Shown: positions 45,087-61,969 of the stretch, piece after piece
How the letters are laid out: each line of letters starts with the position of its first letter
How positions within the stretch are numbered: position 1 is the first letter of the stretch
Assembly (NCBI RefSeq): GCF_000203815.1
Contig: NW_004457723.1
Coordinates: forward strand, 1,116,001 to 1,180,000
DNA from: Cavenderia fasciculata
Taxonomy: Eukaryota > Evosea > Eumycetozoa > Acytosteliales > Cavenderiaceae
DNA length: 64,000 nt
Direction: 5' to 3'
Translations under genes and position numbers: made by a program
Notes under the pieces: model-generated
What the model was told of the DNA's origin: nothing
The model's database searches: none
What the model saw: only the letters and a program-made list of their open reading frames with translations

Positions 45087-48000
45087 TTAAACTTTTGATT
45101 CGGCAACTTGTTGTGATCCAAATCGTAGCTTGTAATTTTCTTTTGCAATTTGAGAACGACGCTTCTTTAGGTAATAACCAGTACCTCCAACACATCCAAC
45201 AAATACAGCACAGCCAACAGCAATACCGGCTATGGCACCACCAGACAGTTTTTTTTCATTTAGATTACACTGGTCAAAGGATATATAGACACGATCCTCT
45301 TTGGCCACAGGTACAACATTGCATTCGGCAGGTGGTGCAAACTCTTCTGCTCCATGATTGTTGCCGTCATAGATTAGAATATTGGTATGATTGTGATCAA
45401 TGCTAAAAATAGCATAGCTTGGATCTGTCGTATTAAATGTCATCACTGTAAATGTACCATTTTCATTAAACATCTCTCTATTGATCTTTATCAATAAATG
45501 ACTTGCTGGAATTGATACAACTGATGTAAAATTAACTACAAACAATAGTTGTATAAGTATTTGATTTGATTTGTTATTATTTTTACAAGTTTTGATACAT
45601 ACAATGAGTAAAATTAAATTTGGAATCAATAACAATGATTAAAGTTGAATCATTTTCAAGTTGAACAGTCTTTTCAAATACAAGTCTGGATGTAGTGTTG
45701 GCACCGAGTGTTGAATTGGAACCAATGTAAAGGTCAGACTTTATAGTTCCATCGCCTCCAATCGATCCTGCAAATAGGTTGAGACGTGGTTCAGACTTTA
45801 TACTACAATTAAAATTCAATCTAATGGCACTGTCATTGTTACCTGCTTGTCTAATCTGTCCTTCAAAATCTGTTTCAAATTCTAAATATCCATTATTATG
45901 AATATATAACTAAAAGAGTAAAAGAATAATTTAATTAAAGTAAGTAATTGAATTGAATTGATTGATTGATTGATTTGTTAATTTCTATATCTATTCCTTA
46001 CATTTTTAGGATAATTTCCTTGATTAACTGCAAGTGAACCTTCATTTACTATTCTACTTGTAGTAATATTGACTACATCTTTAATGACGATGTTTGTGTT
46101 GGCAAGTTGAAGAGAGCTGTTAAAGGGGATGTGAATGGTAGAGTTGAACATCTCCAACTTGACAGAATCAGTGTAGAGAGCTGGTTCAGTACCAACTTGT
46201 AAAGTAGACACTGACAATGACAATGTTACATTATTGATCAATTCACCATTCAATGCATTACTATCAACCAATTTAGATTGAATCACTTTAATTACTCCTC
46301 CCTAAAAAAATAATTTAACAATTTAATTCATAATGAGTCACGAGTATTATTGTTGGTTTATACATACATTAGAAGAGAAACGACTATTCATTTCTAAAAA
46401 GGAAGAAGTGAGGGTGATATCATTGAATTCAAGTGAGCCAATGACGTTTACACTGTTGGTTAACACCAATGTATCAAATGACAGTGCACCCTCAGAAGTG
46501 AATGAACCACCATCTACCGACAATACAGAATCTGATGTAATACTACTCTTATCATTGATCGTAATCGTTGAGTTTAAAAATGACAATGGTGACTATTTAA
46601 AAGGGTGGTGTGATGGGTGAGAGAGAGAGAGAAAGGAAGAGAAGTGTGATTGTGTTAGTGTTGATGTTCAAAAGAATTTACTTTTTTTTTTTTTCCTTTC
46701 TTGTGGAAGGAGGGGGGGGTTTGTGATGATATTAATATTAATTTGGTTAAATTGATTCTATCCTATTTAGGATATCTTCAAATTGGTTAACCAATTTAAA
46801 ATCAATTTAACACCAAGATATGAAACAAATGAAAAAAAGGGAGGGAATATTATGATACATACTTTTTGGATATTAATTGAAGATAGAACCAAAGAAAAGA
46901 CTGAATTAACAAATGTCATATTTGATGATGATAGTTTAATTTCAACATTATCAAACGGTAATTTACTATCCTTTATATTGATATTCGATGAGTTCTAAAA
47001 ATAATTAAAATAAATAAAAATGATCAAAAATTAATATAAAATACTATTAAAATGGATGGTTGATCAAAAAAATGATTTCTTCTTCTTACACTTGATAAAG
47101 ATGCACGACTAAATATAAAAGTACTATTTTGAATATTAAATATTGAATTTGGAAGGATATTAAATAATCCTATGTATGCAGTTGATAATTCTGAAAATGA
47201 TGTTACTGATATTCCATTAATTGGTATAAAGGGGAATGTACCATTCTCTAAATCATCTGGATACTCTTGTTGGAAACAACTAACTGTATTGATAATATTT
47301 AATTTTGATTGCTAATTGAAAAAAAAAAAAGAATAATAACTATTAGTTTTTTTTTGAAAAAAAAGGATAAAATAGGTAGATATTATATATCAAAATTATA
47401 ATTACATACACTTAAAGTAAGATTATTAAATTGAATTCTTTGAGAATCTAAAAATGTTAGATTTGAATTGATGGCATTTAAAGTACCAGGATAATATTCT
47501 GAGTTTGAAACTTGGAATGAATTTGCTGTATCTACAGTGATATTGATTGGTAGATTTAGTTTTGAATTGGTGATTTTATAATTTGACTGTTTTCCAACTG
47601 TAAATATTCTATTGACCCCTGATCTAAACTTGATAGTTGAATTATCAACTACAAAAGATGCTCCAGTATTTATAATAAATGGTCCTGCAATTCCTACTGA
47701 ATCATCTAAAAATTATTTAATAATATATATATATATATATAGAATAGTTGTAGCGGAGAGGGAGGGAAATAGTTAGTTAGTTATTTATCTTGTTGTATTT
47801 TTATTTCTTTTTCTTTTTCTTTTTTTTTTTAATTTAATTAATCTTACCAAATTGAGTTAAACATGTTGGAGTTGAAATATTATAATATGAAGATAATTGA
47901 AATAATGAATTGATTATTCTAAATTCACCTGTAAAAGATCTGGAAAATCCAATGTCTGATGAGGTGAGGGCATAGTTGTTTTGGATTTTCATCGTTGATG

Positions 48001-48349
48001 GGTAGTAGACCAAGGCACTCGATGCTTGTAATCCCTCTGAATTGATTAAGAAGGTGGAGTTGACGGAGCCATCGAGATTCCCAATCTCGAGAAATGGTGT
48101 GATTGCCAGGGTACCGTTGGTTTCAACAGTGACACCTGTTTTCTTGATCTTTGCTGTACCCCATAACACATTACAGGTCCAACTGGAGATATCAGAGAAC
48201 CGTGATGTGGCACCACCTTGGTAAAAGCAATCTTCCGACAAAACTCTGTTCTCGAATATAAAAGATGAAAATAATATAATATAAAGTAGTACTATTGACA
48301 ATAATGTAGTTGAACTACTACTACGACTATTACTTGATTTACTATTCAT
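45087..48349 (-). CDS. Type I membrane protein with repetitive beta-rich ectodomain, paralogue 2
   Basis: Eight exons (48349-47848, 47705-47410, 47311-47090, 46994-46863, 46592-46368, 46301-46002, 45909-45603, 45535-45087) give 810 residues. A signal anchor-like leader (TTLLSIVLLYIILFSSFIF) precedes CFYQGGATSRFSDISSWTC, the counterpart of the WNGGSGSYSDQTKW module of paralogue 1. Many short repeats with NST/NSS sequons and alternating hydrophobics follow, suggesting a beta-helix. Near 759-784 is one transmembrane helix, GGAIAGIAVGCAVFVGC, almost the same as in paralogue 1. A 27-residue tail is basic, then ends FGSQQVAESKV. It is expected to be a glycosylated surface protein of unknown ligand. 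It is transcribed away from TIG gene 1 across a shared 1.26-kb region. Confidence 0.85.
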
Positions 48350-49607
48350 TTTCTAGATGTTGTGATTTGGAATTAATATTGATGAATAAACAAAACAAAA
48401 AAAGGACAAATATACAAAGATGTGGAGGGGATGTTTAGTTTAAAAAAAAAAATGTTTTGGAAATGGAAATGGAATACTAGGCAGTACTAGGTTGGGTAGC
48501 TTGGTTGACGATTTAAAAAAACAGACAAGAAACTTATGGTTTGGTTGGTTGTTTTGTTTGGTTTGGTTTGAGTATCCAAACAAACAAACAAAAAAAAGAA
48601 GAAGAAAGATTGATTTTAATTTCTACAAAAGTCTTGCATGCTTACACCACCACTACCACCACCTCCACCACTCATATGATGTAGCTCGTTTACTATCACC
48701 ATTAGCGAAGAAGACGTCTATTACCCCGCCACCACCACCATCAGCAGCAGCAGTAGAACAAAAAAAAATCAACACCCGTTGGTTCCAGGATCATATCATA
48801 TTATATCCTATTTATTTAAATAAAAACAAAACAAAATTGGATTTGATTTTCGTCCTACTACTACCACCCCATTCATGATGTTGTGTTATACATCTTTTTC
48901 AAAAAACCGGCGATGTGTTTGGTTCGTTGGGTCCCACCCATTCACTCACTCACTACCCACCATCATCAGCGAATACACAAACACCAACAACATCGACATA
49001 TATCTATCTGTGGGTGTGGGTGGTGTTGACTTTCCTTCAAAACCCAACAGCAGTCTAAATTTAGGATCGCCACGCTGATGGGAATGATGATTGGTGAGAG
49101 GGGGGTGACGTTCATTTCAATTGATTGAAAAATAAATATAACATATGTTGGGAATGGGTTAATGTTGATTGATTGATTGATTTCACGCACACAAACAAAC
49201 ACAAAACAATATTAATATTTAAACTTGTGTGTTGAACAAAATGGATTTGGCTTAGGTAGAATACATCGATTGATCTATTGGCATGGATCACTCCATATAA
49301 TATATGGGTGTGCTGTTCAATATTGTGATCATCACCAAACAAGCAAACATCAATGATGCATCATCATCATCATAATTTGTGATGTTCTATTTTTGTTTAT
49401 AGAGTTATAAAAGTTAGTTGATCTATTATTATAACTTTAAAATCAATAATAATAATAACTTTAAAAATCAACTATAGAGTAAAGTAGAGTGTCCATATAT
49501 ATATGTGTGTGAGTGTGTGTATTAGTATTAGTAGTTGGTAGAAAAAGAGAAGAATCTTATACAATCTAATTTAAATCGCAGAAAGAAAAGGAAAGAAGGG
49601 GAATGAA
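48350..49607. promoter_or_regulatory. Shared divergent upstream region, beta-rich membrane protein 2 / TIG protein 1
   Basis: Head-to-head surface-protein genes share this region. It contains a G/T-rich CTGTGGGTGTGGGTGGTG (49009-49026) that resembles the G-boxes bound by the dictyostelid G-box factor, CA-rich CCACCACTACCACC (48651-48664) and AT-rich start-proximal DNA. Short open frames inside are not convincing genes. The regulatory reading is inference from motif composition. Confidence 0.45.
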
Positions 49608-52600
49608 ATGAAGCTTTCATTGCCATTTTCTTCATCGTTGGTAGCAACATCACTACTACTCTTCTTCTTATTTTGTTTCATTGCATTGATTGATCCTACT
49701 CTATCCCAACGTATGTATCGACATATATCATCATAATCCTCCTCCTCTACATATTGTTGGTATTAACAACACAATTATATGGTTGTTATTTTATTATTAA
49801 TTTAAACATTAATTATTATACCCACAATTTATTAATAATAATAATAATTATTTATTGATTATTTATTTATTTGTCTTTCTAGAACAACCAAATAATGTAT
49901 TTACAATTAATTCAATTGATCCTTCAAGGTTTATATTTAAATTATCGCCAGGAGCAAAGGTTAATTTTGAAACAAATGGTTCTTGGGAAATGAGATTTGC
50001 TTCTACCAAAATACTAAAAAAGGATAGTTTTACAGTGATTGATAGTGTCACTCTTTATCTAAACTTTACAAAGTATTTCGATGTTGTCAACAAGAATGAT
50101 TATACTCAACGTGTCGATCTATTTGATAGTAGTACTGCCACTGTCCCTTCTGCAAGGGGAATGTTGGCATTACCAATGTACATTTATGAAGCAACACCAT
50201 TGAATGTAAATGAAACTGTCGTCACAGTCATTGGTTTTGGATTTTTGAAATCATCAAGACCTAATGCCAAAGTATTGGATGTTCATTTTCTTGATAAAAC
50301 TATGGCCCTTGATCCTAATTTGGTGTCTACCGCATCGGTCAATAAAACAGTGTCCGATACAACCATACTAGCAAATGTTCCTACCACTTTTCAAACTGGA
50401 AAATCTCATAGAATTGTAAATGCTAAAGCAAGTAATGGTGAATCTATTTTTGTTGCTAATCAATCAATCAATTTTTCTTATAAACGTAAATATAAACAAG
50501 TTTAGTTTGTTTCATTTAGTATTTACCAACTAATTGTCTATTTCAATAGCACCAACCATTACAAATATTGTAAAGAATTTAGATAATCAATATTTCACAT
50601 TGACTGGTATAAATTATTTTGCTGGGTGGAATATTACACAAAACAAACTTAAATTAATTATCCCTAATAACCCACCCATCCCAGCCAGCAATACTGCCAC
50701 CTTTATTTCAATCAATGAAAAACAAATCATTCTAAACCATCAATCATTAATGTCAATTGGAAAATATAAAATTCAATTGGATCTTGATTCTAATATTAGT
50801 GAAGAAAAAGAATTTACTTTTAGTATGTTTAAAAGGAAAATAATAATAATAATAAGTTTATTAAACTTTTAATTTATATTTAATTTTTAGATCCAATTGT
50901 AACATTTGTATCAAGTTCACCAAGACAAGGAGGTGATGTAACAATTAAAGGAGTATTCTTTAATAGAACTAAAAATGATGGATCAAATACACCAAGAGAT
51001 ATTTCGGTGACACTTGGAAGTGTGTCATGTCCAGTCGTTGAATCTGCGATTGATTCAGATACGGCTCTAGTATGTAGACTTGGACCAGGAAACAATCTAA
51101 CCGATGTAATGGTCAAGGTGGTGATTGATGGATTCGTGTCCAATACAAATTATAATTTTACTCAAGGTGACCCTGTCATTGTAGAGTGTAGACAAGTGTC
51201 TCCCAAGGTGATTTGTAAAGGATACAACTTTAACAATATCACCGATATAGCAATGCCCGATGGACAAACCTACTCTGATCGTCAATCAAAGGAAACAGAG
51301 TTTACAATCAATCTCGACAGTGTCACGATATTCAAGAGTGGTTCGATTAAAGTTTTGTCATCTTTTAGAGACTCTCCTCTATTCCCTATTATATTTTTAC
51401 CAATTCCAAAGCAAAGTACTACACCTCCAACAACTGGTGGTACCATTACAATCACCGGAAAGGGGTTGTCTCCCAAGACATTTGCCAATGAAAGTATTGA
51501 AGGTTACGGTATATTTTACAATTATCGTGGCAACGAGATGGAATGTAAAAATGTAGTAGAGATTGCCAGTACGACCAAAGTGACTTGTCAAGTTCAACCT
51601 GGTGGTGGTGCCAACTTGCAACTGTATGTTAGAGTATCCAAGGATGGTCTGTCGCGATCCAACAACATCTCTCTCAGTTACAACAAACCAGTTGTCCTAT
51701 CATACTATCAAAAAAAGAATGGGTTCCATCTAAATGGAACTGATTTGGGATCAAGTGATACCAATGTTGGACTAGCAGCAAAATATGGTGGGACGGATCT
51801 ACCAAGTGGTGCAGCTACATTTAACGTTGAAAATGGGACTGAACCTATAGTCTATTTAACATCAGATACACCAAATGGTAAATTATACTTGATTGTTGAA
51901 GGACAACAATCCAATGGAATCGATCTAATAGACATTAAACCAGCCATTGAAAATATCAACCCCATCCCAACTAGAGGTGGTACGGTCACTGTCAATGGTT
52001 ACTTTTTCAATACCCTCGATCCAAAAAACATAACGTTCCTCTCGGGTAATGTTGAATGTACCAATCTAACGATTGTATCAAGTAATCAATTCACTTGTCA
52101 AGCAGCTGGTGGATTTGGCAAGACTAGACCTGTTACACTACGAGTCAACAATAGGAATACATCTGCATTGGATCCAGTTGTTCATCTATCCTATCAACCA
52201 CCAACCATTGAAACCACTACATCAACCAATTACACTGGTGGTCTAGTGACCATCATCGGTACCAATTTCCATATTCAAGTTACCAATGTAACCATTGGTA
52301 CAGAGAATCCAGTTGATTGTGCAGTTAGAAATATTATAGATTACAACAAAATCGTTTGTTATCTAAAGAAATGGAATAATGATGATGGTATACTTAAAAA
52401 TGAAACTTATCTTGTTACTATTACTGTTGGTGATCAATCAATTAGTAAATTAGATTTTAAATGGGGTCGTATGTAAAATAGAAAAAGAAAATAGACACAA
52501 AAACAACAAATCACAAATATAGAATGCATACATTTAACTTGATTCATTTTCTATCTACCAATTTAGTTGAAGGATATAGTTATGGTATGAGTCCAGATAA

Positions 52601-52733
52601 ACCAAAGAAATGGTTGATAGCAGCTATTGTTATACCTGTAGCTGCTGGTGTATTGGCAATTACAGCATTTAGTTTTATTCTATTTAGAAAACATCAAAAG
52701 TTTAAGAAACTTCAATCAATGTATAAAAAATAA
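49608..52733 (+). CDS. IPT/TIG-repeat transmembrane protein 1 (Tgr-like)
   Basis: Five exons (49608-49710, 49883-50485, 50550-50822, 50891-52468, 52567-52733), all introns in phase 1, give 907 residues. There is a signal peptide (TSLLLFFLFCFIALIDPTLS), an N-terminal domain of about 200 residues, then several immunoglobulin-like IPT/TIG repeats (marks: RQGGDVTIKGVFF, TTGGTITITGKGL, PTRGGTVTVNGYFF, NYTGGLVTIIGTNF), many NxT/S sequons, a transmembrane helix at 868-892 and a short basic tail ending FKKLQSMYKK. Layout and length match dictyostelid Tgr proteins, which mediate cell adhesion and, for TgrB1/TgrC1, kin recognition. Orthology to a particular Tgr gene is not shown. Its paralogue lies at 58880-61969 with identical intron positions. 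Confidence 0.9.
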
Positions 52734-53000
52734 CAAAAATAATAATTATTGTTCACCAACACTTCAATCATTATGTACTTTTTTAATTATCTATTCTATA
52801 TGTTATGAATAGAAATATTAATAATATTAACTCCTCTTACATTTGTTTTTAAATTTAAATAATAAACCTTAATTTAATATGTATATATATCTCTTTGTAA
52901 TATTTATTAATAAATATTAAATTCTAAGTATTTTTAAGTTTCAGATTTCTTGAACTCCCAAATCTTCATTCATATTTATTTGCATTTTTTTTACATATAT
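52734..53000. other. Intergenic, TIG 1 / RAD51C
   Basis: 267 bp of very AT-rich DNA. I looked here for an upstream exon encoding the usual RAD51C N-terminal helix-hairpin domain and found none. Confidence 0.5.
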
Positions 53001-54144
53001 ATGTATTTCGATCAATATATCAATGTACATCAGAGTTCACAAGGAGGTGAAGGAGTAAGTGCACTCGATCATTTGGTAGCAGATGCACAACCTCAAAATA
53101 TTATCACCTTTTGTAGAGAGTTGGATAATATGTTGGGTGGAGGTATCCCTCTTCAAAGAATAACAGAGTTTTGTGGTGCTCCTGGTGTAGGAAAGGTAAC
53201 AAACTATATAAATAGATAAATAGATAGATATCACATGAGATATATAGAAATCAAATGAACTAATTTATTATATTATTTAGACACAATTAGCATTTCAATT
53301 AGCAGTAAATTGTTGTATACCAAAGATATTATATGGTGTTGAAGGAAAGTGTATCTTTATTGATACAGAGGGAGGTTTCTATGTTGATAGAGTAAAACAA
53401 ATGGCTGATAGTTTAATAGAACATTTACAAATAATGGGTCAAACAGGAACCGACCAAGAAAAAGATGCTGCCAATCAAATAACAGTAGACTCTATACTCG
53501 AAAATATAATGTACTACAAGATTCACCATTACATTGAACAAGTTGCTTTTATACATCATTTACCTTTAGTTTTGGAAAATGATAGAAATGTAAGAAAGAA
53601 AGAAAAAGAAAAAGAAAGATGGATTGATGTACTACAAGTTCTAACAACATATCTTTCCTAGATTAAATTAATTATAATTGATAGTATTGCATACCCATTT
53701 CGTAGACATTTTAGTGATATGGGAGCAAGAAAGAGAATATTATCATCAATGACACAGAATCTATTATCTATTGCCGAACAATACAATGTGGCAGTAGTCA
53801 TTATGAACCAAGTTACAACTAAAATACTACCAAACAATCAATCGATGCTAGTTCCATGTTTTAATTTAGGCAATTATTGTGCTAACCGTGTATTCCTATA
53901 CTGGAAGGATCAACAACGACATTGTCATATCTATAAATCATCTTTAATACAACCATCTGATGCACCATTTGATATAAATCAAGATGGTGTTCGTGGTTTT
54001 ATTCCTGATGGAGAAGAAGCAGATGATAATGATAATAATGGTGATGGTGATGGAGGAGTAGGAGAAGAAGATGTTATGAATGACCAAGACCACCCAATTA
54101 TTTTACCTATCCAATATTATTCTAATCAAATGGATACTACATAA
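53001..54144 (+). CDS. rad51C: DNA repair recombinase RAD51C
   Basis: Three exons (53001-53195, 53281-53589, 53662-54144) give 328 residues. SALDHLVADAQPQNIITFCRE, LDNMLGGGIPLQRITEFCG and the Walker A GAPGVGKT (split by intron 1 after the Lys) lead the RecA core. Next are CIFIDTEGGFYVDRV, the block IHHYIEQVAFIHHLP, Walker B IKLIIIDSIAYPFRRHF, and MNQVTTKI. These match RAD51C best among RAD51 paralogues; RAD51C acts in the BCDX2 and CX3 complexes in homologous recombination. The model starts about 70 residues later than animal RAD51C, lacking its N-terminal helical domain. The usual ESWGH-like segment reads NLGNYCANRVFLYW. An acidic Asp/Asn/Gly insert lies near the C-terminus. Confidence 0.88.
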
Positions 54145-54326
54145 TATAAAATATAATATAATCTAAATAAACTTGCATACATGTATAAATAATTATAGTT
54201 TCCCGGCATTATTTTCAAAAAAAGTAGTAATTAAATTCGAATCAATCGGTCGTTCATTTGTATATCTCTCTTTTCAAAAATAGATTACAGTATAGATATT
54301 AAGATAGATATAGATATAGATAGAAG

Positions 54327-55196
54327 ATGGGAGACTCTGATGATGATATGAATGATGTTCGAGATATACCACTCGATGAAAAGCATCAAGCATTATTACA
54401 GACATTTATCGATCGAAGAATCATAGAACAATCAACACTAGCTAAAATAGTATCATCGATTAAAAATTATTATAGAGGTATGATTGATTTGAATGAATCA
54501 GATGACATACATATATACACATTCGAATCATATTCTTATTCTATATCTTTCTTCATTTTAGAAACAAATGGAACACCAAATGATTATATAAATAAGATTA
54601 ATAGTTCAATTATTAGTGTCAGTTTAAAGATATCGAATCTTCGTACTGCCAACAAACAATATTGGTGTTTGGTCAATTTAAAGATAGACGAAGGATCAAA
54701 ACTAGCAACTAAATATGCACCTGTTGAAACCACCTATTTCAAGGTAATCGTAGAGGCAATGTTGGCCAATGGGGGTGAAGCTAGAACATCTGCTTTGGTC
54801 GATCTCTCCAAAGGTATCAAAGATATGACAATGACCAAAGCTGAAAGAATCATTAGAATATTTAAAGAAGATGGTTGGCTCAAAGAAACTTCAAACACTA
54901 CCATTTCTCTTAGTGATCGATCAATCATGGATCTTGGTCCACTTCTAGTCGATTTACCTGAATGTTGTTTATGTCATCAACGTGTATTAGTTCAAAATGT
55001 AAGAAACCAAACAACAACAACACATTCAATGGACACATTTATATAATATATATAAATCTAATCACTCTATTATTCTTTATTTATTTAGAATCATATCGAT
55101 GATTGTGAACGTTGTAATGCAAAGATGCATCCACATTGTTTGGAAACCTGGAAAAAGAAAAATAACAATTGTCCTTCATGTAGTCAACCACTTTAA
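54327..55196 (+). CDS. nse1: SMC5/6 complex subunit NSE1 (RING-type E3)
   Basis: Three exons (54327-54477, 54562-54998, 55089-55196) give 231 residues. The first two thirds resemble the tandem winged-helix part of NSMCE1 (HQALLQTFIDRRIIEQSTLAK, YWCLVNLKIDEGSKLATKYAP, EDGWLKE). The C-terminus is an NSE1-type RING-like zinc domain: CCLC, DDCERCNAKMHPHCLETW, NNCPSC. NSE1 pairs with NSE3 (MAGE) and acts as a ubiquitin ligase within SMC5/6 in DNA repair. It lies 182 bp downstream of RAD51C on the same strand, two repair genes side by side. Confidence 0.92.
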
Positions 55197-55797
55197 TAAT
55201 AATAATAATATAATAACGCGTAACATCACAGACAGAGACAGAGAAAAAAGAACAAATTGGATTGGATTGGATAATCGCGAGTATCTTGGTATTATTGGCA
55301 AATTCTGTATATATTTATAATCCAAAAATCAATGGCAAATCATACCAACAACAAATTATTATTTACCCAGTCCAATACAAATACAATACAATACAATCTT
55401 TTTTGAAGATTTATGGAAGAATTACAGTAATTAACCAAAAGTTATATATATATGTGTATTATTTTGGTTTGTTTTTTTAAAAAGAAATAAATGGGTTGGT
55501 TCAACTTCTTGGTTGGGTAGTATTATCTAGAGGTAGTGGCGCATATCAACCATTTTTGGTTTAAATGCATTTATATATATATATGTGTGTTTTGTTCTAA
55601 CTATACAATTGTTGTTTGTTATTGTGTTGTTATGGTTGTAATTGTTTGGTTGGTTGATGGATTTGTTTTTTAAAAAACGCAGTATGATCATCATACTATT
55701 TGTTCCAATCATCAAATAGTATAATGAATGTTTGTTGGTTTAAACCAATTATGTAAGTATATATTTAAAAAAGAAAAAGGGGTGGAGGATATTGTAT
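55197..55797. other. Convergent intergenic, NSE1 / SNARE
   Basis: About 600 bp between converging genes, with AAT repeats just after the NSE1 stop, repeated AATACA units near 55379 and T-rich stretches. No gene was recognised. Confidence 0.55.
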
Positions 55798-56152
55798 TTA
55801 TGTAAATTTTAATACAATTGGGATAATGATAATAGCCAAAATAATTAAAACAACCAATGCAATAATAAGTGTTATCTAATAATAAGAAAAAAGAATGGTA
55901 GATTAGTATAATTGAATAGATAATTCTCTCAATAGTAGTTGTAGTAAGTCATACCTTCATATTTCTGCACCACATCAATCTCTTTACTTCATTTGTCTTT
56001 TTCTTGAATTGAGCAGCACCCTCTTTCATATTTTCACTCTTTTGTTGCAACTCTGATACCTTGGTTTGATTATCGATCATTGTACCGATTGCATTGTGCA
56101 TAACACCTGCAACTTGGTCAACTTGTTGTTGAGTTGAATGTACTTTATCCAT
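55798..56152 (-). CDS. R-SNARE (synaptobrevin/VAMP family), minimal form
   Basis: Two exons (56152-55955, 55875-55798) give 91 residues: a SNARE motif at about 7-62 (QQQVDQVAGVMHNAIGTMID, then NQTKVSELQQKSENMKEGAA, then QFKKKTNEVKRLMWCRNMK) and a C-terminal membrane anchor (TLIIALVVLIILAIIIIPIV). The tryptophan-basic junction before the anchor is typical of VAMPs. There is no longin or other N-terminal domain, as in animal VAMP1-3. R-SNAREs drive vesicle fusion. Aligned to synaptobrevin, the central zero-layer Arg position holds Asn (MIDNQTK where VAMP2 has LERDQKL). An earlier coding exon cannot be excluded, since TATACAG just before the ATG could be a splice acceptor. Confidence 0.85.
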
Positions 56153-57127
56153 GTTTCCGTTATATGTTCTGTATAGAATGATAATGACGACGATTAGTTA
56201 TATTGGTCTCTCTGTTTATTGGTTTGTTTGCTAATATGCCAATGTTATGTTATCTGTATCTATTTATAATACTGTTGTTTCTGTTGTTTGCATGTAACTA
56301 AACATTCATTCTTTTATTCGTTCTCTTCTTTAATAATACATACGACATTTTTTGTTTATGTTATCTCTTTCTCTATGTTATCTAAATTAATTTGATGCAG
56401 GTCAGGTGCTGTCTGTATGAAATAAATTTATTTAAATATTTATATATATATTTAATTTAATATGAATAATAATAATAATAATATTTGTAATTGTGTATTG
56501 TGTGTATCTCTTTTATCTCTCTCTTACTTTTCTACTTTATATTAATGTTGTTTTGTTTTTTAAAAAATTAATTTAATTTAATTAAATTGACATGTTTTTG
56601 TGACGAGGTGGTGTGAGAAGACAGAGGAGAGGGGTTGGAGAATTCGCACTTAAGCGAAAATGCTATTTTGAATGTTACAACAACCTCGATAAAGGCCATT
56701 GTCTTTAAATCTCAGTATACCAAGGTTGTAATGTCCTTATACCACAAAAACAATACAAGTAGAACAACTATAACTATAAGAGAGAGAGGGAGGTTGTGAG
56801 AGGTTGTGAGGAGAGAGGTTGGAATTGAATGTCCTCAAGCAAGAGAGTGAGAGAGGAGAGAAATTAATTTTTGTCAATCTTGATTAGTGTTTCATCTCAT
56901 TTATATTATATTTCACATAAACAATTGTATCTCAATATATTGATCAGATGAGAGAGATAATATATTATATTATTGATAATACTACCCTCATTAATACTTG
57001 TTTTAAAAAATAAATAAAATAAAATAATTAATTTAAAAAAAAAAAAAAAATTAAATTCTCTCTACTGAATCAAAAAACCGAACGAAACGAATTCTATTTG
57101 TATTTTATCAAAGTGTGTAGGAAGAGA
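56153..57127. other. Divergent intergenic, SNARE / GRWD1-like gene
   Basis: Nearly 1 kb. A less AT-rich, fold-prone stretch at 56640-56740 contains TTCGC-ACTTAA-GCGAA and ACAACCT pairing with AGGTTGT. GA-rich repeats occur around 56770-56850 and a poly-A run at 57036-57050. No coding frame was recognised. Confidence 0.5.
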
Positions 57128-58709
57128 ATGGAGAAAAAGAGACAATTTGAAGATATAGAGTTTGAAGACTATGGAGACGATAAAGACGACGAGGAACAAG
57201 ATAATATAGAGGAAAGCGACGATGAATTCGAAGGGGACGAAGTCATCGAAGAGGAACAAGATGATGACCAAACAGGTGGTGGAGAAGAAGGTGGTGATGC
57301 CGAGATGGACGATGAAGAAGAGGGTAAATCAAATGCACCTACCCGTGTATGGCGTCCAGGTGTCGATGCACTCGAAGACGATGAATATCTTACATACGAC
57401 AGTACTGCATACGATATGATGCATTCAATGACTGTCGAATGGCCATGTCTCAGTTTCCAACCTCTCAAAGATACTTTAGGAAATCAAAGAAATAAAGTAT
57501 GTAAACACAAAACTAAACAAACAAAAGAACAAACTAAACGTAGTAGTACAATCAATATTCATATTCATATTCCCTCTTTCTCTACTCTCTCTACTTTCTA
57601 CTTTTTTCTTTTAGTATCCACATACAATGTATATGGTAGCAGGAACACAAGCAGATCAAGCAAAGAATAATAGAATATTGGTAATGAAAATATCTGAATT
57701 ACACAAGACCAAACATGACGAGGATGAGGATGATGATGCATCAGATGTCGACCAAGACGACGATGAAGACGAAAATATAGATACCGACAGAGAGGTTGAG
57801 TTGGTGACCAGCTCCATCCCACATAACGGTTGTGTAAATAGAATTAGAGCAATGGATCAACAATCAAATATTGTGGCCACGTGGTCTGACAGTCGTCAGG
57901 TTTACATTTGGGACATACAAAACAATTTGAAACGTTTGGACACTGACGACAACAAGGCTGTCAAGGGTCAAGGCCCCATCCACGTGGTGTCGGCACACAC
58001 CGACGAAGGGTATGCTTTGGACTGGTCGCCCATCGCTCTTGGTCGTTTGGCCTCGGGTGACTGCGCACACAACATCCACGTCACATCGGCGGCCGGCGCT
58101 GCCTGGAAGACCGACACGGTCGCCTACAAGGGCCACACTGGCTCGGTCGAAGACATCCAGTGGTCGCCAAGCGAAGAGAGCGTCTTTGCAAGCAGTTCTA
58201 CGGACAAGTCCATCAAGATCTGGGATATCCGTCAACACTCCAAGCCCGCCATCTCGGTGCAAGCTCACGACGCCGACGTCAATGTCATCTCGTGGTCGCG
58301 TCGTGTCGAGTACTTGATCGTGTCTGGTTGCGACGACGGCTCCTTCCGTGTCTGGGATCTCCGTAACTTTAAGTCACACGAGCCCGTCTCACACTTTAAC
58401 TACCATACCGGTCCAATCACTTCGATCCAATGGAACCCATGGGACGAGTCACAAGTCATCGTTGCCTCGGCCGACAACCAAGTCACCATCTGGGATTTCT
58501 CACTCGAAGAGGATACCGAAGAATTCCAAGGTGTCAAGGGCGAAAACGACCAAGACGACTACCAAATCCCCCCGCAACTATTCTTTATCCATCAAGGTCA
58601 ATCTGACGTCAAAGAAGTCCACTGGCATCCACAAATCCCCCATGTTGCCGTCACTACTAGTTTTACTGGTTTCAATATTTTCAAGTCTTCAAATGCTGAA
58701 GAACAATAA
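57128..58709 (+). CDS. grwd1: WD40 ribosome-assembly protein GRWD1/Rrb1
   Basis: Two exons (57128-57496, 57615-58709) give 487 residues. A very acidic N-terminus (about 80 residues) is followed by WRPGVDALEDDEYLTYDSTAYD and MTVEWPCLSFQ, the signature lead-in of GRWD1/Rrb1. Then come WD40 repeats with SIKIWDIR, SFRVWDLR and QVTIWDFS ends, and HPQIPHVAVTTSFTGFNIF at the end. The family acts as chaperone for ribosomal protein uL3 in nucleolar 60S assembly, and animal GRWD1 also binds histones. The second exon is markedly GC-rich with C-ending codons (57890-58620), unlike its first exon and neighbours. Confidence 0.95.
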
Positions 58710-58879
58710 ATTAAAAAGTAAAAAAAGAAGTATAGAATATTTTTAAAAAAAAAGAATAGAATATGCGATACTTATTATTTATTATCTTCTTTTGGTAGGG
58801 TGGGTGGGTATATTTGTACAAATAATTTAAAAAATGTGGAGGAGATGGATGGTGATTATTAATTTTTTGATGGTTGTTA

Positions 58880-61064
58880 TTATTTTTTATACATTGATTG
58901 AAGTTTCTTAAACTTTAGATGTTTCTTGTACAAGATAAAACCAATTGCACCAACTGCCAATACACCAGCAGCTACAGGTATAACAATAGCTGCTATCAAC
59001 CATTTCTTTGGTTGTTCTTTTGAAATTCCATAATTATATCCTTCAACTAAAAATAGAAAAAAAGAAAATAATAATTAATATGTATACTATTCTATTTTCT
59101 ATTTTCTTTTTCTTTCTATTTTACTTACGACCCCATTTATAATCTAATTTACTAATTGATTGATCACCAACAGTAATAGTAACAAGATAAGTTTCATTTT
59201 TAAGTATACCATCATCATTATTCCATTTCTTTAGATAACAAACGATTCTATTGTAATCTATAATATTTCTAATTTCACAATTGACAGGTACTTCTTCACC
59301 AATGGTTACATTGGTTGATCCAATATGGAAATTTGAACCGACGATGGTAATTAGACCACCAGTGTAGTTGGCAGAGGTTGTAGAATCAATAGATGGAGGT
59401 TGATAGGAAAGATCTACTATTGGATCAAATGTTGAAGTATTCTTGTTGTTGACTCGTAGTGTAACAGGTCTATTTTTACCAAATCCATCTGGTGCATTAC
59501 AATAAAATTGTTTGGTTGATACAATCGTTAGATTGGTACATTGTACATCACCCGATAGAAATGTTATATTCTTTGGATCGATGGTATTGAAAAAGTAACC
59601 ATTCACTGTAACAATACCACCTCTAGTTGGGACAAGAGTGATATTATCTATAGTTGGTTTAATATCAATCAAGATATCATTTGATTTTTGACCTTCTACA
59701 GTTAAATACATTTGTGCGTTTTGTGATTCCGTCGATATATAGACAATTGGTGGTGGTTCAAGTCCTGAACCAGCAGCAGTATCACTATAGGATACTGTAG
59801 TCAATTCAGTTCCACCATAATTGGCTGTAACATTTACAGCTGCCTCAACCGATCCTAAATTGGTTCCATTAATATAGAACCCATTGATTCTTTGATAATA
59901 GTCTATCATCTTGGGGGCAATATATCCAAATGGAATGGTTTTAGATTGTCCACCGGCAGTTTTAATGTACATGTCTAGATTTATACCTCCACCAGGTTGA
60001 GCATTACAAGATAGATGATCGACACTAACTTGGATGGCACCATCACAAACAACTTCTTGACCATGGTATTTGTAGAAGATTGAGAAACCTGCGACATCTG
60101 AATTGTCAGCTGCCTTTAGTGATAATGCACTTCCAACGAGTTGAATGACTCCTCCAGCAGTTGGACACAGTGACACTGATTTGATAAGTGGGATAAATGA
60201 AATTGGGTATGGTGTAGAGTTTCTAAACTCTGATAATACTTGAATTGGTCCATTCTTTAGTCCAACTAAATTAGTAAAATCAAATGACAATTGATTATCA
60301 CTAGATGTTACAGTGATAACTGTTCCATTAGGAAGTTTAAGGTTGGTAGATGGATTGTTGAAATTATAACCTTGACATGTAACTAGACCAGGTGTTTGTG
60401 AACAACTTGCAATCATTGGAATTCCTTGTGTAAATTTAATATCCAAATTGGAGTCTAATTGTTCTATTGTAACTTTTACAGGTTGATCAACTAACCCCTT
60501 TGCACCTTGTAACATGCATACAATCAATGTATTTGAATCAATTGGAGATTTAACCATCGAGCATGGTTCAGTACCAAGTAATACAACAATATTGGTATTT
60601 GATCCATCATTTCTAGTTCTATTAAAGAATAAACCTTTAATTGTTACTTCTCCACCTGCTTTTGGTGCACTTGATACAAATGTTACAATTGGTTCTAAAA
60701 ATTAAAATTAAAAATAAATAAACATATTTTTAAATGTTTTACTATTATATTATACATACTAACAGATAATTGAGAAATAGGACCAGGATTATCATTTAAA
60801 TCTAATTTAAGTTGATGAGTTCCAACTGTTAGGATTGGTGGAGCATAAACAATCATATTTTTATCATTGATTTGGGTGAATGGTGTTGGGACTAGTTGAC
60901 CATCTACAAAGAGTTTCAAATCTGTAGCTGCTTGTACCCCTGGGTAATAATTGGTACCTGTAATTGTATAAAAATTGGAATTTGTATTCCAAACTATTGT
61001 TGAAATGGTTGGTGCTAAATAATAATAATTATAATGGTAATTAATATTACAAGCTTTGTATGTG

Positions 61065-61152
<88 letters not shown>

Positions 61153-61969
61153 ATACATACGATTAAAAGAAAAGGTAATATTTTCACCTAGATAGATGAA
61201 ATCAGGTCTTTGAACGGTTGCACTTAATACATTGTATAATCTACCAGATTTAATGGTTGAAGGAACATTTGTTGTAAAAGCAGTACTATTGATGAGTGAT
61301 TTGAATTGTGCTGTTGCATTTTCTGTACCAGTGCCAACGGGAAGTAGTGATAAAACGACTTGAGTAGGTAGACCAGAGATTGGTTTCCCAATTCCATAGC
61401 CAATAAATGTTATAGAGGTGGCGCCAATATCTGCATTTTTGGCTTCATAAATAAAAGATGGCACTGTTAATTGTCCGTTGTAATAGTTGGTGGTATCTGT
61501 TGCCTTTGGATAAAAGAAGATAGAGTCTAGTTCATTTGGTGACTGGTCCACTAAATTTGAGTTGACCTTAAAGTTGAAATATATTTCTTGACTCGTATAA
61601 GTAAAATGGGATCTATCCAGCATCTTGCCAGTTTGTTGAAATTGACTACCAAAGACTATGCCCCAATCTAAATCAGTTTGGAAGTTGATCTTGTCTCCAT
61701 TGGAAATGACGATTACAAATTTTATTGCATTTCTAGATTCCACCTTTAATTCTCCTACTGAATTGATGGATGCAAGTCAGTAATAGTAGTAGTAGTCAAT
61801 ATGTTAATATTTATAAATCTAATCTAATCTAACCGAATCAAAGAATAGGATATGATGTCTTACAAATGTCAGATTGAACCACCTGAAAACCACTGATCAT
61901 TAACAAGAGCAACGATAATAGAGACCAAAACCAAACTCTTTTCAACAAGGATTGTTGATAGTAATTCAT
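58880..61969 (-). CDS. IPT/TIG-repeat transmembrane protein 2 (Tgr-like)
   Basis: Five exons (61969-61864, 61757-61161, 61014-60760, 60694-59129, 59046-58880), all introns in phase 1 and at positions equivalent to TIG protein 1, give 896 residues. A signal peptide (WFWSLLSLLLLMISGFQVVQS) leads to a divergent N-terminal domain of about 200 residues, then TIG repeats (PKAGGEVTIKGLFF, PTRGGIVTVNGYFF, NYTGGLITIVGSNF), glycosylation sequons, a helix at 857-881 (KKWLIAAIVIPVAAGVLA, identical to paralogue 1) and the tail FKKLQSMYKK. It is expected to be a cell-surface adhesion or recognition receptor. Intron 2 contains a long AAT repeat. It is divergent from the glycerol kinase gene. Confidence 0.9.
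61067..61150. repeat. (TTA)n/(AAT)n microsatellite inside intron 2 of TIG protein 2
   Basis: About 28 uninterrupted TTA units between a GTATGT donor and the next exon. They would read as poly-Asn if retained; the splice signals and paralogue comparison show it is intronic. Confidence 0.9.

Follow-up and report, generated by a model that had tools for sequence, protein, structure and literature searches.

The TIG-repeat membrane proteins TgrB1 and TgrC1 of Dictyostelium discoideum are encoded by genes with a common promoter of 523 bp, and the N terminus of TgrB1 is highly polymorphic, according to the available part of PMC5288501. In the portions at hand of the comparative papers, tgrB1 is listed for group 4 only and tgrC1 for D. 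discoideum only (PMC4931340, Table 3), one-to-one tgrB and tgrC orthologues are confined to the discoideum clade, with homologues in more distant Dictyostelium (PMC12324515), and a tgrC1 orthologue is reported in D. purpureum, which is also a group 4 species (PMC3188802). As a class, IPT/TIG proteins are recorded there in all Dictyostelia examined (PMC4931340), and D. fasciculatum is placed in group 1 (PMC4334915). For TLR1 and TLR6, the extract of PMC2077338 reports gene conversion in nine species, which takes in the C-terminal repeats, the membrane helix and the greater part of the TIR domain, on the basis of a codon test comparable to the one used here.

Here, we report that two TIG-repeat genes of Cavenderia fasciculata, A and B, which lie in one window (the whole 64,000-nucleotide stretch of DNA analysed, C7:1116001-1180000), are very probably old paralogues in a convergent inverted repeat whose 3' ends have been exchanged by interlocus gene conversion.

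Results

Gene models read from the DNA gave A and B four introns each, all in phase 1, with reading frames that are open throughout when the predicted splice sites are used (Table 1). The models bear out the five exons with equivalent phase-1 introns that a sequence-only reading of the window had described.

Table 1. Features of genes A and B and of the related gene C (window positions unless another contig or locus is named)
Feature	Coordinates	Strand	Description
Gene A	49608-52733	+	907 aa, TIG-repeat protein; gene model read from DNA
Gene A, exons 1-5	49608-49710, 49883-50485, 50550-50822, 50891-52468, 52567-52733	+	Predicted from DNA
Outer exons 2-3 of A	49883-50822	+	No Pfam family above cut-off
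Weak Ig_TgrO1 region of A	50893-52467	+	Pfam match below cut-off
Gene B	61969-58880	-	896 aa, same plan as A; gene model read from DNA
Gene B, exons 1-5	61969-61864, 61757-61161, 61014-60760, 60694-59129, 59046-58880	-	Predicted from DNA
A-B spacer	52734-58879		6,146 bp; at least four other genes: Rad51 family, Nse1, synaptobrevin (-), WD40
Alignable 3' stretch	A 51843-52739 = B 59751-58874	A +	BLAST 80.7%, through intron 4
107-bp identical tract	A 52350-52456 = B 59247-59141	A +, B -	A residues 813-849, end of exon 4
59-bp identical tract	A 52600-52658 = B 59013-58955	A +, B -	A residues 864-883, exon 5, most of membrane helix
37-bp identical tract	A 52697-52733 = B 58916-58880	A +, B -	Last 12 residues and stop codon
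Gene C	C18:778481-775514	-	878 aa; five exons and four phase-1 introns as in A and B
Weak domain-model region of C	L039:2254-3801	-	Pfam matches below cut-off

The A protein begins with a hydrophobic N terminus, continues with TIG repeats (exon 4) and has a single predicted membrane helix before its short basic tail. TIG was the sole Pfam family above the cut-off in A and B, with four stretches per full protein (E 8.4e-23 for A and 6e-20 for B), and scanning exon by exon confined these matches to exon 4; exons 2 and 3 scanned alone gave no family above the cut-off, and Pfam reported neither a Sema nor a PSI domain for A and B. The membrane helix and the hydrophobic N terminus were called from hydropathy alone, each protein having two peaks, the first at the N terminus and the second beginning at residue 869 (A), 858 (B) or 844 (C). 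There are 22 N-glycosylation sequons in A and 15 in B. Below its cut-off of 27.9, Ig_TgrO1 (PF24612) matched exon 4 of A (E 0.0017, 19.0 bits) and exon 4 of C (E 0.065), and no match was listed for B in the Pfam search by exon. Structure prediction was poor for exon 2 (mean pLDDT 31.8) and gave for exon 4 (mean pLDDT 72.4) a row of beta sandwiches, approximately six judging by the strands. The best Foldseek match of the exon 4 model was plexin A1 (E 3.6e-13), with plexin A1 IPT3-IPT6 and Met also listed, at TM-scores of 0.22 or less by query length, and the model also matched other beta-sandwich chains, from cytokine receptors, Dscam and fibronectin. A sequence search of the PDB with A gave a single match, TLP-IPT (E 0.11). 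Judged by their domains, A and B would be putative cell-surface receptors for adhesion or recognition, like other TIG proteins of dictyostelids, with differing outer tips and a common anchor. Intron 2 of B (window 61015-61160, minus strand) carries a long run of AAT triplets and has 146 bases, against 64 in A.

The G+C content of the window is 0.28-0.39 per 2-kb step. Within the spacer, a Rad51-family gene and the gene for the SMC5/6 subunit Nse1 adjoin each other (window 53281-55043, plus strand); that genes of recombination and repair families lie between A and B is probably a coincidence. On the other side of gene A, and divergent from it, window 45087-48352 (minus strand) has open frames that may belong to one membrane protein, with a hydrophobic start at 48352 and a helix with a basic tail near 45200; a Pfam scan of the frame 47837-48352 gave no match.

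The genome searched for relatives comprised 30,995,898 bases in 21 contigs. TIG is abundant genome-wide, with at least 150 matches (scoring covered 150 of the 449 candidates), and the matches listed for exon 4 of A include, apart from A, B and the gene C described next, 39 places that are 24-44% identical to it, of which 33 are in open frames of more than 600 codons. Searches with exons 4 and 5, in which the best candidates were scored, gave one further relative with the full plan, gene C. Its identity to A is 32% in exon 4 and, along 45 residues, 49% in exon 5. When exon 2 of A served as the query, the search returned A, B and a match in C14 (E 0.0069, with an in-frame stop), and did not recover gene C. 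Weak matches of C to DUF7063 and DUF7055, which we take to be domain models from dictyostelids, were below the cut-off. A, B and C form a small subfamily whose proteins have IPT/TIG sandwiches in series and a single membrane helix at the C terminus, and C was used as an outside yardstick for the divergence between A and B. Elsewhere in the genome, C13:378001-446000 holds long TIG genes that apparently form three head-to-head pairs (minus/plus) in tandem, with a unit of ~24 kb and matching pieces that are 77-97% identical; the orientation of these apparent pairs is closer to that of tgrB/tgrC than the orientation of A and B is.

The amino-acid identity between A and B is 0.29, 0.28, 0.28, 0.57 and 0.78 of aligned codons in exons 1 to 5, and dS (NG86) is 2.9, 1.7, 0.9, 0.83 and 0.27. 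The poor alignment of the outer parts that had been noticed by eye thus holds, with an identity of only 0.28-0.29 in exons 1-3. The stem had been called nearly identical, which is too strong: the last TIG repeat (A residues 758-858) matches B at 83% of 98 columns, and the identity in exon 5 is 78%. Sliding windows of 50 codons, the check that had been proposed for silent divergence, showed that dS is stepped along the gene: about 0.5-0.6 in 681-805, lowest at 0.04-0.05 over A residues 806-880, and about 0.3 both at the extreme end and where exon 4 begins.

The longest identical run had been read as 108 bp (52349-52456 and 59141-59248), of which the first base differs and 107 bp stand; the second, put at about 58 bp around 52600-52658, is present with a length of 59 bp, and we found a third run of 37 bp, which ends at the stop codon. 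With a match probability of 0.85 over 868 aligned bases (0.80 without the three runs), the 107-bp run is expected 3.3e-6 times by chance (1.1e-8 at 0.80) and the 59-bp run 0.0084 times (0.0004 at 0.80), and the 37-bp run alone is not significant (0.31, or 0.05 at 0.80). A 161-base query around the tract matched two places in the genome, A and B. Next to its identical runs, exon 5 matches in just 25 of 35 and 27 of 40 columns; for intron 4, which has many indels, the count is 70 of 102. The tract borders do not follow domain borders, and the 59-bp run (residues 864-883) ends inside the hydrophobic peak starting at 869. The alignable 3' stretch stops just past the stop codon; further alignable pieces are found at 50811-51062 (76%, spanning intron 3) and 51703-51752 in A coordinates, and in the flanks (600 bp upstream and 400 bp downstream) the A-B score was within the range of 200 shuffles. 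Among the four introns compared, only intron 4 is clearly alike between A and B (z 5.5, with 2.7, -2.6 and 1.7 for introns 1 to 3).

Towards the 3' ends of A and B, third positions have a G+C of 0.10-0.15, and near the internal exon ends this value goes down to 0.03-0.17. Because this inflates silent identity, tests for conversion need correction, and the expectation in our same-codon test was therefore taken from regional codon usage. The test was restricted to shared amino acids, with Met and Trp codons and columns gapped in either sequence left out. No excess of identical codons was found between A and B in residues 1-234 (26 of 59, expected 23.0) or 375-680 (62 of 126, expected 54.2, P 0.08), and the excess was slight in 235-324 (18 of 25, P 0.045) and 325-374 (25 of 32, P 0.018). 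In residues 681-805, 67 of 92 codons were the same with 43.7 expected (P 1.6e-7), and in the last 102 residues, 806-907, 79 of 84 were the same with 47.7 expected (P 1.9e-16). Four harsher nulls weakened the excess in 681-805 (P 4e-6 to 0.001); that in 806-907 held under all five nulls (expected 46-53, P at most 3.3e-13), including one with third positions at 95% A+T (expected 52.9, P 1.6e-13), and one of the harsher nulls used 83 codons there instead of 84, with 78 identical. The longest run of identical codons at shared degenerate amino acids was 41 between A and B, a length reached by 0 of 20,000 codon-order shuffles. For A and C, the run of 10 was reached by 3,035 of 20,000 shuffles, and for B and C the run of 6 by 17,048 of 20,000; in the same-codon tests, neither A-C nor B-C was significantly above expectation in any of the regions (P 0.06 at the lowest). 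Silent-site tests with paralogue C as the control thus support the conversion of the stems that the sequence-only reading had proposed.

That reading had also proposed that selection diversifies the outer domains. The NG86 dN/dS between A and B is below 1 in each of the five exons and exceeds 1 in 2 of 34 windows, 298-347 (0.465/0.32) and 831-880 (0.084/0.05), with dS not computable in 4 of the 34 because the silent sites are saturated. On the columns common to all three genes (those gapped in any of A, B and C were dropped), the A-B, A-C and B-C identities are 0.27, 0.24 and 0.15 in exon 2 and 0.28, 0.30 and 0.29 in exon 3. Divided by the distance from C, the A-B distance gives a ratio of 0.60 (0.45-0.94) for exon 2, a rough value because the B-C distance is at the set ceiling of 3.9; the ratio is 1.05 (0.67-1.70) for exon 3, 0.55 (0.42-0.69) for the middle of exon 4, which was not converted, 0.25 for 681-757 and 0.05 for 806-858. 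Exons 2 and 3 together, at 0.78, are marginally above the middle of exon 4 (a fraction of 0.045 of the bootstrap replicates lies at zero or below), and for exon 2 alone this fraction is 0.25. Diversifying selection on the outer domains is accordingly not borne out, given that dN/dS stays below 1 in the exons and exon 2 is not clearly faster than the unconverted stem. A tip that evolves faster than the stem is possible but not established, and exon 3 may be beyond expectation. The three-way ratios indicate that most of the contrast between tip and stem comes from conversion of the stem; the outer exons, mostly unconverted, retain the divergence of the old duplication.

Discussion

Interlocus gene conversion between A and B is well supported by the DNA, since their 3' ends share sequence, silent sites included, beyond what their age elsewhere in the genes and the local codon bias would leave. 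The shared region extends from about A residue 681 onward and is strongest in 806-907. We consider it highly improbable that strong purifying selection and A+T-rich codon choice near exon ends produced this likeness with no conversion. Besides the low third-position G+C near the 3' ends, what speaks for such an account is that in 806-858 the pairs with C also share many codons (A-C 16 of 20, expected 13.8; B-C 14 of 19, expected 13.3) and each match 6 of 8 fourfold sites, so that this control partly favours codon bias. However, A and B are identical at 15 of 15 fourfold sites there and at 14 of 15 in 859-907, where A-C match 2 of 8 and B-C 2 of 7, and A-B beats the bias-based nulls (806-907, P 3.3e-13 or lower) whereas A-C and B-C do not. 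The account by codon bias only was tested and then dropped, as the excess in 806-907 persists under the harsher nulls.

If A and B did exchange their 3' ends by conversion, a single past event could have swapped one gene's 3' end for the other's with no repetition, and the one contiguous alignable stretch would fit it. This is unlikely, because the stepped silent divergence calls for at least two ages or uneven constraint. With an indel-rich intron 4 between near-identical exon pieces, one recent continuous tract does not account for the whole pattern. The intermediate silent divergence in 681-805 rather suggests that conversion was patchy and, judging from this one genome, probably happened more than once. 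The 107-bp and 59-bp identical runs flank intron 4, and near-identical exon pieces next to differing introns would be expected if a spliced cDNA had been the template; yet if a cDNA template had spanned the junction, intron 4 would have been lost, and both genes still have it, as the sole intron with clear similarity between them. There is very little chance that the cDNA explanation is right. Conversion of exons only, via cDNA, was dropped for the same reason, intron 4 being more alike than the other introns. The template of the conversion was most likely genomic DNA, since intron 4 retains more similarity than the others do. The bias towards the 3' end may come from the geometry of an inverted repeat, the inner ends of which are mutually closest and best matched; alternatively, selection may favour a shared membrane-proximal repeat, helix and tail that work with the same partners.

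The A-B pair is like mammalian TLR1/TLR6 in that both are linked receptor paralogues with a diverged N-terminal part and homogenised C-terminal repeats and helix. In the extract of PMC2077338, the fraction of identical codons in TLR1/TLR6 is 56% for residues 1-436 and 96% for the converted part, and for A-B it is 44-49% and 94%. As in the TLR pair, A and B have in one region an excess of identical codons beyond the constraint of amino acids and codon usage. TLR1 and TLR6, as described there, are tandem genes with leucine-rich repeats and a TIR domain, whereas A and B are inverted, have TIG repeats and a short tail, and were compared in one genome. Because of this precedent, the pattern is already known, and A-B is a new case of it. 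A literature search, with subscription papers mostly outside its reach, returned no title or abstract opening on the A-B pair.

TgrB1/TgrC1 and A-B have a common plan of TIG repeats with one membrane helix and a similar length (TgrB1 has about 900 aa in the available part of PMC5288501), and in both, as far as the sources at hand go, recombination acts on the genes; moreover, the outer exons of A and B are the most diverged, exon 3 perhaps beyond expectation. Even so, it is quite improbable that A-B is a kin-recognition locus at which conversion keeps the stems alike, selection diversifies the tips, and recognition is between the two proteins or between matching alleles. Besides the dN/dS below 1 per exon and an exon 2 that is not clearly faster than the unconverted stem, the arrangement argues against it: A and B are convergent, 6,146 bp apart from stop to stop with unrelated genes between them, and not a head-to-head pair with one promoter. 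In the sources as available, the TgrB1/TgrC1 genes are divergent and polymorphic between strains and their products bind each other, whereas A and B are convergent. The listed range of tgrB1 (group 4 only) and tgrC1 (D. discoideum only) in the part of PMC4931340 at hand also counts against this reading. Orthology of A and B to tgrB1 and tgrC1 is contradicted by the distributions in the available parts of PMC4931340 and PMC12324515, and these ranges argue against orthology in a group 1 species but not against a similar job. The chance is slim that a group 1 dictyostelid, outside the clade of the tgrB/tgrC orthologues, has a two-gene recognition system of its own, in which conversion across the inverted repeat maintains a common membrane anchor and the tips diverge under between-strain selection. 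Allorecognition by A and B is possible.

At present, the pair shows a known process in new genes, and these TIG receptor-like paralogues of a social amoeba make a clean example, from one genome, of partial concerted evolution. If sister genomes agree, such conversion would be a simple way of retaining a shared anchor while the outer parts drift, and A and B would be a candidate pair for cell-cell recognition outside group 4.
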